Below, piece after piece: positions 46,174-50,174 of a stretch of DNA of 64,000 nucleotides. This DNA is from Nonomuraea terrae (GTDB lineage Bacteria; Actinomycetota; Actinomycetes; Streptosporangiales; Streptosporangiaceae). The notes beneath the pieces are model-generated. The model saw only the letters and a list, made by a program, of their open reading frames with translations. It did not search any database and was not told the DNA's origin. A program made the translations under genes and the position numbers. How positions within the stretch are numbered: the first letter of the stretch is position 1; every line of letters starts with the position of its first letter. The DNA is taken from NCBI RefSeq assembly GCF_004348995.1, contig NZ_SMKQ01000016.1:1-64000 (forward strand), in the 5' to 3' direction.

Positions 46174-47244
46174 ATGGAGTACGCGGTTGGTGTGCTCGTC
46201 GACATCGACGACTACATGGCGCTGTCCAGGGCCCGCGGATCCCAGTGGGCGCGCACGCAGCTGGAGCGGGCCGACCGCGCGATCCGCGAGGTCACCGGCT
46301 GCGTCGCGCTGCCGCCCGAGGAGTGGCTGGTCGTCCTGACCGGGCCCGACCCCCGCCGCCTCATGGACCGCGCGAGCACCCTCGCCGAGGACGTACGCGC
46401 CCGGATCGGGCGGGCCGGGGAGCTGACGGCCACGGTCAGCCTCGGACGCCCCGGGCTCCTGGCCGAGGCGGAGCGGGACGCGCGCCGTACCAACGCCTAC
46501 AAGCTCGTGCTGGGCGGCGACCGGGTGATCACGGCGCCGGAGGGGGACCGCCCGGAGGGCGGGCCGCCGGTGCGGATCGAGCCGGAGCTGGCGCGCGCCG
46601 TGCACGCCGGCGACCGCCGGGCGGCGGCGGCCCTGCTGGCCGGCTGGGTCGACCGCTGCAGCCAGGAGCGCGACCTCGACCCGGCGACGCTGCACCGGTG
46701 GCTGGTCGGGGAGCTGCTGTTCGTGGTGGACCTGGTCAACCGGCGCAGGCTGGCGAGCGGCTGCACCGACTGGGTGGACGCCTGCGCCCGGCTGCCGATC
46801 TCGGAGCTGGTGGCGGTGAACTCCATCCACGAACGCTCATATTTACGGATCTGGGTGGAAGAGATCCTGACGCGGCTCATCCCCGCGGCCGCCCGCGACA
46901 TCCTGACCATGGCCGAGAGCTACATGGCCGCCCACTACGCCGACCCTGGCCTGCGGCTGACCACCGTGGCCCAGGCCGTCTCGGCGAGCCCGTTCCACAT
47001 CGCCCACCTGTTCGCCGCGGAACGCCGGACGACGTTCCTGCGCCAGCTCACCGGGCTGCGCATGCGGCACGCCCGGTCGCTGCTGACGTCGTCGGCGCTG
47101 CCGGTGGAGGCGGTGGCCACGCGCTCCGGCTACCAGAGCGCGAAGGCCTTCCGCGGGGTGTTCAAGCGGCACGTGGGCTGCTCACCCACCGAATACCGCA
47201 GAGCCCACCGGGCTCAGACCAGCGAGCGGATCACCAGGGTCTGA
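46174..47244 (+). CDS. AraC-family regulator with GGDEF-like N-terminal domain
   Basis: 356 residues. The C-terminal 105 residues are a double helix-turn-helix ([20 protein letters not shown] and [20 protein letters not shown], the second with the usual F-x-R-x-F-K pattern). The first 125 resemble a degenerate GGDEF/cyclase fold: [31 protein letters not shown], then [20 protein letters not shown]. Catalytic GGDEF residues are absent, so ligand sensing is more likely than c-di-GMP synthesis. Its 3' end overlaps purA by 31 bases, tail to tail. Confidence 0.85.
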
Positions 47245-48502: not shown

Positions 48503-48568
48503 AGTCTCCCGAGCACAAAACGAAAACCCCTGACGCAAGTGCGACAGGGGCTCTTGCGTTGAGAGACT
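48503..48568 (-). ncRNA. Candidate cis-regulatory RNA in the purA leader
   Basis: Read 5' to 3' on the minus strand: AGTCTCTC (48568-48561), ACGCAAG (48559-48553), CCCCTG (48550-48545), CTTGCGT (48539-48533), CAGGGG (48532-48527), oligo-T (TTTTCGTTTT, 48526-48517), GGGAGACT (48510-48503), ATG 48497. ACGCAAG pairs with CTTGCGT, CCCCTG with CAGGGG, and AGTCTCTC with the ribosome-binding region GGGAGACT. The first two helices interleave, so they compete or form a pseudoknot. TAGTCT (48569-48564) also fits a -10, which would place the RNA 5' end near 48557. Confidence 0.5.
48517..48550 (-). terminator. Intrinsic terminator between DUF3151 gene and purA
   Basis: CCCCTG-T-CGCA-CT-TGCG-T-CAGGGG stem followed by TTTTCGTTTT on the minus strand. 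It is the only textbook stem plus U-tract I find in the window. It ends 20 bases before the purA ATG, so it either ends the DUF3151 transcript or attenuates purA. Confidence 0.75.
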
Positions 48569-48590
48569 ACCCGAACGTGGTCATTCAGGG

Positions 48591-49001
48591 CTAACCCTTG
48601 GTCAGCGCGTCGTAACCCGTTTCCGTGCTGTCCTTCAGGAACTGCAGACAGCGCTCGGCCTCGTCCTTCTCGCCGATGGCCTGCGCCGCGCGCGACAGGG
48701 CGTACAGGCAGCGCAGGAACCCGCGGTTGGGCGCGTGCTCCCACGGGATCGGGCCGTGGCCCTTCCAACCGCTACGGCGGAGCTGGTCGAGGCCGCGGTG
48801 GTAGCCGGTGCGGGCGAAGGCGTAGGAGGTCACGGCGTGGCCCTGGGCGAAGTACTCCTCCGCGAGCGCGGCCCAGGCCGCGGGGTAGGCGGGGAACCGG
48901 GCGGCCACGTCGGCGGCCTTGACTCCGGAGTCCAGCAACTCCCTGGCCTCAGGCAGCTCCGGCAGATGCGTCGGGGGCGGCCCGGCGAGAAGGTTTTCCA
49001 T
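48591..49001 (-). CDS. DUF3151 family protein
   Basis: 136 residues. ENLLAGPPPTHLPELPEARE, then FPAYPAAWAALAEEYF and KGHGPIPWEHAPNRGFLRCL are DUF3151 hallmarks, a small helical actinobacterial family of unknown function. I chose ATG 49001 because TATGAC lies 7 bases upstream, the leaderless layout; ATG 49013 would add four residues. It sits between fbaA and purA, an arrangement familiar from actinomycetes. Confidence 0.88.
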   Translation of the reverse strand: MENLLAGPPPTHLPELPEARELLDSGVKAADVAARFPAYPAAWAALAEEYFAQGHAVTSYAFARTGYHRGLDQLRRSGWKGHGPIPWEHAPNRGFLRCLYALSRAAQAIGEKDEAERCLQFLKDSTETGYDALTKG

Positions 49002-49035
49002 AGCACCAGTCATACCCGCCAGGCCGCCGAAGTGG

Positions 49036-50058
49036 CTATGAGATCTTCGTCCCAGCGCTCTTCAGGCTCTGGCACGCCTCGACGACGCGGGCGGCCATCC
49101 CGGCCTCCGCGGCCTTGCCGTACGAACGCGGGTCGTAGGTCTTCTTGTTGCCGACGTCGCCGTCGACCTTGAGCACGCCGTCGTAGTTCCTGAACATGTG
49201 GTCGGCGATCGGCCGGGTGAAGGCGTACTGGGTGTCGGTGTCGACGTTCATCTTGACGACGCCGTACGAGATGGCCTCGTGGATCTCCTCAAGCAGCGAG
49301 CCGGAGCCGCCGTGGAAGACCAGGTCGAAGGGCTTGTCCTTGCCGTACTTCGCGCCGACGGCCTCCTGGATGTCCTTCAGCACGCTCGGGCGCAGCTTGA
49401 CGTGGCCCGGCTTGTACACGCCGTGCACGTTGCCGAACGTGGCGGCCAGCATGTAGCGGCCGTGCTCGCCCAGGCCCACGGCCTCGGCGGTGTCGATCGC
49501 GTCGCCGACCGTCGTGTAGAGCTTCTCGTTCATCTCGCCGACGACGCCGTCCTCCTCGCCGCCGACGACGCCGATCTCCATCTCCATGATGATGCGGGCC
49601 CGCGCGCACTTCTCCAGGAGTTCCCTGGCGATCTGCAGGTTCTCGTCCAGCGGGACGGCCGAGCCGTCCCACATGTGGGACTGGAACAGCGGGTCCAGGC
49701 CCTTGGAGACGCGTTCGAGCGAGATGTCGATCAGCGGCCGCATGTAGCCGTCGAGCTTGTCCTTCGGGCAGTGGTCGGTGTGCAGCGCCACGGTGACCGG
49801 ATATTTCGCGGCGACCACGCGCGCGTACTCGGCGAGCGCCGTCGCGCCGGTGACCATGTCCTTGACCGTGGTGCCCGAGAGGAACTCCGCGCCGCCGGTG
49901 GAGATCTGCACGATGCCGTCGCTCTCGGCCTCCGCGAAGCCGCGCAGGGCGGCGTTCAGCGTCTGGGAGGACGTCACGTTGATCGCCGGGTAGGCGAATC
50001 CGCCGGCCTTGGCCCGGTCGAGCATCTCGGCGTAGACCTCTGGAGTCGCAATAGGCAT
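49036..50058 (-). CDS. fbaA: Class II fructose-bisphosphate aldolase
   Basis: 340 residues. Zinc-site motifs VALHTDHCPKDKLDGY, EMEIGVVGGEEDGV, NVHGVYKPGHVKL and VFHGGSGS are all present, with NVDTDTQYAFTRPI near the end. Reaction: reversible cleavage of fructose 1,6-bisphosphate in glycolysis/gluconeogenesis. ATG 50058 has AGGGAG 6 bases upstream; ATG 50064 lies inside that site. It is transcribed toward DUF3151 with a 34-base gap. Confidence 0.95.
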   Translation of the reverse strand: MPIATPEVYAEMLDRAKAGGFAYPAINVTSSQTLNAALRGFAEAESDGIVQISTGGAEFLSGTTVKDMVTGATALAEYARVVAAKYPVTVALHTDHCPKDKLDGYMRPLIDISLERVSKGLDPLFQSHMWDGSAVPLDENLQIARELLEKCARARIIMEMEIGVVGGEEDGVVGEMNEKLYTTVGDAIDTAEAVGLGEHGRYMLAATFGNVHGVYKPGHVKLRPSVLKDIQEAVGAKYGKDKPFDLVFHGGSGSLLEEIHEAISYGVVKMNVDTDTQYAFTRPIADHMFRNYDGVLKVDGDVGNKKTYDPRSYGKAAEAGMAARVVEACQSLKSAGTKIS

Positions 50059-50174
50059 GATCATCTCCCTGAGAAGTTACGGCTTGGGGCCAGGCCCAGT
50101 ATTCCGAGTGTCTACCCCATGTGGTAGAGCCGACGCGCGCCGGGGCGGTCCCGGGCCTGCTCGCGGCCACGGGA

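Follow-up and report, generated by a model that had tools for sequence, protein, structure and literature searches.

The analyzed window, a 64,000-nucleotide stretch from Nonomuraea terrae (contig NZ_SMKQ01000016.1), carries purA on its minus strand, preceded on the same strand by a DUF3151 gene and by fba (Table 1). At its other end purA overlaps, tail to tail and by 31 nt (47214-47244), a plus-strand ORF of 356 aa (46174-47244) that by eye resembles an AraC-type regulator. Read on the minus strand, the leader of purA runs TAGTCT CTCAAC GCAAGAGCCCCTGTCGCACTTGCGTCAGGGGTTTTCGTTTTGTGCTCGGGAGACTGAACC ATG. A sequence-only reading had picked out in this leader two helices (ACGCAAG with CTTGCGT, CCCCTG with CAGGGG) and a segment, AGTCTCTC, complementary to the ribosome-binding region; all of these segments are present and in place on the minus strand, and the two helices interleave as proposed, in the order 1-2-1'-2'. 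The 75-nt leader folds at -36.2 kcal/mol (z = -4.9) and its terminator part alone at -23.7 kcal/mol (z = -5.4), values that none of 200 shuffled sequences reached in either case.

Table 1. Features of the purA locus and its leader (positions in the window)
Feature	Position	Strand	Basis
purA, adenylosuccinate synthetase, 427 aa	47214-48497	-	ORF; Pfam PF00709, E 3.1e-184
purA start codon ATG	48497-48495	-	sequence
GGGAGACT (ribosome-site region)	48510-48503	-	sequence
Ribosome-binding site GGGAG	48506-48510	-	sequence, position relative to ATG 48497
U-rich terminator tail TTTTCGTTTT	48517-48526	-	T counts after P2
P2 3' arm CAGGGGTTT, segment 4	48524-48532	-	compensatory pair types at +9, +12, +13
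CAGGGG	48532-48527	-	sequence
CTTGCGT	48539-48533	-	sequence
Inner stem-loop CGC-ACTT-GCG, shares bases with P1 3' arm	48534-48543	-	fold
P1 3' arm CTTGC, segment 3	48535-48539	-	longer-than-chance complement; partner of position 2 follows position 2
P2 5' arm GAGCCCCTG, segment 2; overlaps P1 5' arm at G48553	48545-48553	-	fold, cross-family pair table
CCCCTG	48550-48545	-	sequence
Conserved block GCAAGAGCCCC, putative RNA +1 to +11	48547-48557	-	start from -10 spacing
P1 5' arm GCAAG, putative antiterminator segment 1	48553-48557	-	pairs with 48539-48535
ACGCAAG	48559-48553	-	sequence
AGTCTCTC	48568-48561	-	sequence
-10 element TAGTCT (TAnnnT) of purA promoter	48564-48569	-	conservation and spacing
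DUF3151 gene	48591-49013	-	window ORF/Pfam
fba	49036-50064	-	window ORF/Pfam

In the second helix, P2, AGAGCCCCTG pairs with CAGGGGTTT and is followed by the U-rich tail, which ends 19 nt before the ATG. The terminator that had been proposed here is present and extends further than the proposal had it (CCCCTG-T-CGC-ACTT-GCG-T-CAGGGG). A U/U mismatch (48544/48533) lies below the inner CGC-ACTT-GCG stem; a simple terminator scan of the window did not list P2, probably because the stem holds this mismatch. The 10 nt after P2 contain a mean of 7.0 T in the genus and 4.4-5.7 in the other main families, compared with 1.3-1.5 per 10 nt in the rest of the leader. A cross-family MAFFT alignment misregistered the 3' arm of P2, and we therefore counted pairs with anchored scripts. 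Among the 201 leaders with a P2 match, the pair at +12 is U-A in 86, G-C in 71 and A-U in 7, that at +9 is C-G in 189 and U-A in 8, and that at +13 is G-C, U-A, A-U or C-G; pairing at +7 to +11 was demanded in choosing the match, and its 100% occurrence therefore counts as no evidence. P2 covaries across families. In all groups P2 and its U-rich tail lie downstream of the conserved -10 element, the start being placed from that element. By these sequence features, P2 with its T-rich tail is an intrinsic terminator in each of the four main families, and we infer that it terminates transcription in vivo.

The -10 element lies exactly 6 nt upstream of the conserved block GCAAGAGCCCC. Among 34 distinct purA leaders of the genus, the TAGTCT hexamer is 100% conserved, and conservation is 1.00 at -17 to -7 and at +1 to +11, 0.98 at +12 to +27, and 0.77 upstream of -17. 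The block from +1 to +11 keeps a mean top-base frequency of 0.95-1.00 in five actinobacterial groups, and in a set of purA loci fetched by protein only, TAnnnT stands exactly 6 nt upstream in all 20 leaders carrying G(C/T)AAGAGC(C/T)CC. TAnnnT is also the -10 consensus of Streptomyces lividans (PMC8079986), and the HrdB regulon of S. coelicolor includes purA (PMC6344877). Given the conserved -10 element and the usual distance from it to the start, purA RNA most probably begins at the G of GCAAG, position 48557, in agreement with the start near 48557 that the sequence-only reading had predicted. The sequence from +1 is GCAAG or GTAAG in nearly all leaders, and the distance from +1 to the start codon is mostly 100-180 nt in Streptomyces-type loci.

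The alternative helix, P1 (GCAAG with CTTGC), overlaps P2, and its complement sits between the P2 arms. When the growing RNA was folded, P1 formed before segment 4 emerged and P2 formed in the full leader, with fold energies in the window of -7.8 kcal/mol at 24-28 nt and -22.3 kcal/mol at 41 nt; P2 is far more stable than P1. The interleaving expected of mutually exclusive helices is found in the window and in most lineages, and is missing in some. A full pseudoknot with both helices in the window appears sterically unlikely by reasoning, as the linkers are 1-2 nt.

In comparison with mononucleotide shuffles, a statistic that ignores shared ancestry, 29 of 55 Micrococcaceae leaders carry a complement of 7 bp or more to +1..+7, where 2.2 would be expected, and 52 of 73 Nocardioidaceae leaders carry one of 5 bp or more, where 18.2 would be expected; the excess is modest against dinucleotide shuffles of the short loops. 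P1 of Streptomycetaceae spans 4 bp, which is why 5-bp matches are rarer there than expected. We examined the partner of position +2 with an anchor that takes no account of +1 and +2 (CTCTT in Micrococcaceae, the unique CTT in Nocardioidaceae). In Micrococcaceae the base opposite U at +2 is A in 14 cases and G in 12, while in Nocardioidaceae the base opposite C at +2 is G in 23 of 24 cases and never A. The pair types of P1 thus vary consistently (C-G, U-A, U-G), and the helix recurs in loops of different length. Within the Streptosporangiales/Streptomyces alignment we observed no P1 covariation, four of the five pairs being invariant. The evidence for P1 is weaker than that for P2 because of this invariance and because of the smaller excess over dinucleotide shuffles.

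Most Aeromicrobium-type leaders and those of several Micrococcaceae genera keep GTAAG and P2 and have no P1, so that the start sequence must have a role besides pairing. A group of Nocardioidaceae-like loci (L154, L221-L247, L285-L287) mostly has GTAAGAGCCCC at +1 and a short hairpin with no P1 partner; there the start may have another role or be a relic. In some Micrococcaceae-like genera (L335-L337) the 3' arm of P1 is paired anew when the terminator forms, and in other Micrococcaceae-like loci (e.g. L182, L248-L260, L263-L269) a stretch after the terminator arm, GGGGC(A/G)TTCTCATG(C/A)ACGG, is conserved beyond pairing needs.

Within the genus, all 55 genomes have the leader; within the family, 238 of 299 do, representing 56 of 68 genera. 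The sequence-only reading had made its case depend on conservation of the paired segments, and both the terminator and the alternative helix are kept well beyond the genus. The pattern TAnnnT-N6-G(C/T)AAGAGCCCC precedes purA, normally once per genome, in Streptosporangiales, Streptomycetaceae, Nocardioidaceae-like and Micrococcaceae-like genomes (family labels inferred from named loci, e.g. Nocardioides, Aeromicrobium, Arthrobacter and Paeniglutamicibacter). A strict form, TAnnnT-N6-GYAAGAGCCCC, occurs as a single copy in each of 52 of 297 genomes of the class, where its reversed control gave 6 matches in total, and 36 of 37 checked matches lie 61-182 nt upstream of purA. A slightly looser form is found in 124 of 198 Nocardioidaceae-like and 84 of 149 Micrococcaceae-like genomes, and purA lies downstream in 67 of 71 further fetched loci. 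Outside the class, matches were no commoner than those of the reversed control. Many actinobacteria do not have the element, and it was absent from the Mycobacterium, Micromonospora, Actinoplanes, Corynebacterium, Rathayibacter, Bifidobacterium and Lentzea loci examined.

In the window's own genome, a covariance model of the element scored 65.3 bits at purA, the sole site found; the next match (25.1 bits) was rejected as a second copy, being an ordinary 3' terminator of another gene. Elsewhere in this genome (C168:4954-4990, L350), a strong GC hairpin with a T-rich tail stands between genes that are groES- and groEL-like by eye. A contig titled Vibrio cholerae strain 35D (WNZI01000008.1, L138) carries an Arthrobacter-like purA with the actinobacterial leader, and this assembly looks mislabelled or contaminated.

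We propose, and consider reasonably probable, that the element attenuates purA transcription close to the promoter, with the antiterminator made up of the RNA's first nucleotides. What this proposal builds on was computed: the helices and their interleaving, the conservation, the covariation, the U tail and the fixed spacing to the -10 element. RNA polymerase would start at G48557 and make GCAAGAGCCCCUG..., and as the leader emerges segments 1 (GCAAG) and 3 (CUUGC) would pair first, as P1. Segment 4 (CAGGGG), on emerging, could then pair with segment 2 (CCCCUG) as P2, which together with the U tail would end transcription about 40 nt from the start. Because P1 and P2 share bases and interleave, a stably held P1 would act as an antiterminator and let polymerase into purA. 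The default state may simply be termination: P1 would form first, but P2 is much more stable, and something would therefore have to hold P1 or delay P2 for purA to be expressed. Candidates are a ligand, a protein or the speed of the polymerase. We infer that the balance between P1 and P2 is regulated, and attenuation of adenine nucleotide synthesis is a plausible outcome. That the signal reports purine (adenylate/GTP) supply is only a guess. GTP is a substrate of PurA, which uses it in making AMP; with purA as the sole target and a start that is always G, a purine signal is therefore attractive.

One alternative is that P2 is an unregulated early terminator or 5' hairpin, which cuts purA output or shields the 5' end of the mRNA by a fixed amount, with P1 as a folding intermediate only. 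The lineages that have P2 without P1, and the much greater stability of P2, are what such an element would show. It does not explain why the P1 complement recurs in several families in loops that differ in length and sequence, nor why conservation of +1 to +11 goes far past the needs of a hairpin, and we consider it unlikely.

The same conservation could instead reflect a DNA operator, that is, a repressor or activator that binds DNA in the conserved interval from -17 to +11, across the -10 element and the start, with the RNA helices secondary. The fixed 6-nt spacing would fit, as would a +1 to +11 block that is near-invariant even without P1. However, the conserved block is no palindrome, and P2 covaries and is followed by a U tail. 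The arms of P1, moreover, stand about 9 to 15 nt apart across families, unlike those of a DNA inverted repeat, and this variable distance fits an RNA hairpin better than an operator; we judge binding at the DNA to be quite improbable as the main explanation.

Translational control, in which AGTCTCTC hides the ribosome-binding site, was part of the sequence-only reading and is the part that did not stand, unlike its purA leader, terminator and interleaved alternative helix. AGTCTCTC does match GGGAGACT over 8 nt, with 7 Watson-Crick pairs and one G-U, and the pairing is high in the genus (7.41 vs 4.43 in shuffled sequences) and in Streptomycetaceae (6.57 vs 4.25). There is no excess, however, in two of the five groups, Nocardioidaceae (4.52 vs 4.51) and Micrococcaceae (4.09 vs 4.31), and we therefore rejected masking as a general feature. 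Moreover, AGTCTCTC is the -10 region; it lies upstream of the probable start and would therefore be outside the RNA, which makes this reading very unlikely. In Streptomyces leaders (L105-L121) a second stretch, GGACATGCCCCgCCCGGAAGGGGTGTACGCCT, is conserved some 50 nt upstream of the purA start codon, and a hairpin formed by it could hide their AAGGGG ribosome site.

That P2 terminates an upstream fba-DUF3151 operon, with the purA promoter downstream of it, is suggested by the two genes on the same strand in the window and is scarcely tenable: the conserved -10 element lies upstream of the terminator at a fixed spacing, just 19 nt are left before the ATG, and the element is kept in Streptomyces and Nocardioides loci where the upstream gene (diacylglycerol-kinase-like by eye) is divergent, so that P2 there serves no upstream operon. 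A leader-peptide attenuator was rejected as well, there being no ATG or GTG from 48557 to the terminator and a loop length that shifts by single bases between species.

The principle of attenuation is known, and the proposed attenuator resembles trp-type attenuators and riboswitch expression platforms in having a terminator between promoter and start codon and an exclusive helix that forms earlier. Unlike them, it has no leader peptide and no recognized aptamer, its 1:3 and 2:4 pairings are contained within about 40 nt, and the RNA begins with its antiterminator strand. Attenuation of pyrG in Gram-positive bacteria needs a run of G at +1, which lengthens by slippage when CTP is short. There, too, the antiterminator is built from the RNA's first nucleotides and the gene serves nucleotide synthesis; purA RNA, however, starts with GCAAG or GUAAG, never with a G run, which leaves nothing to slip on, and we rejected slippage of this type.

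Purine riboswitches and actinobacterial leaders in Rfam 15 are likewise cis-acting RNAs, as in a purine gene leader, and differ in that the purA element matches none of them: a search of Rfam 15 gave no match near the window leader even at E values up to 10, and no gathering-score match in 18 related loci. A leader motif of FGAM synthase in the purine operon, described as a possible anti-Shine-Dalgarno device, is also a candidate for RNA control of a purine synthesis gene, but of a different gene, and purA is not mentioned in the main text of that study (Narunsky et al., 2024, PMC11109978). Neither Rfam 15, nor three surveys of motifs or terminators, nor text searches yielded a description of a purA leader element, a scope that leaves room for an entry in supplementary tables (e.g. 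of Streptomyces start-site or 3'-end studies). As far as searched, the element is apparently undescribed. A Term-seq study of S. clavuligerus counted as premature only those ends that lay at least 70 nt beyond the start (PMC8269248), and RNAs of about 40 nt would therefore have been left out.

More tentatively, and with considerable doubt, we suggest that these leaders form an undescribed class of very small regulatory RNAs, found in several actinobacterial families, in which the first five nucleotides are the antiterminator and the switch is coupled either to the manner of initiation and the nucleotide used for it (+1 always G) or to direct binding of a purine nucleotide by the 40-nt leader. 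Few intrinsic terminators are predicted in high-GC bacteria (PMC2965389); if our reading is true, high-GC families can preserve intrinsic attenuation that acts no further than about 40 nt from the start. Our literature search found no description of control at the AMP branch of purine synthesis in actinobacteria, and a compact purA attenuator common to Streptomyces, Nonomuraea, Nocardioides and Arthrobacter relatives would provide a control point that is direct and can be tested.
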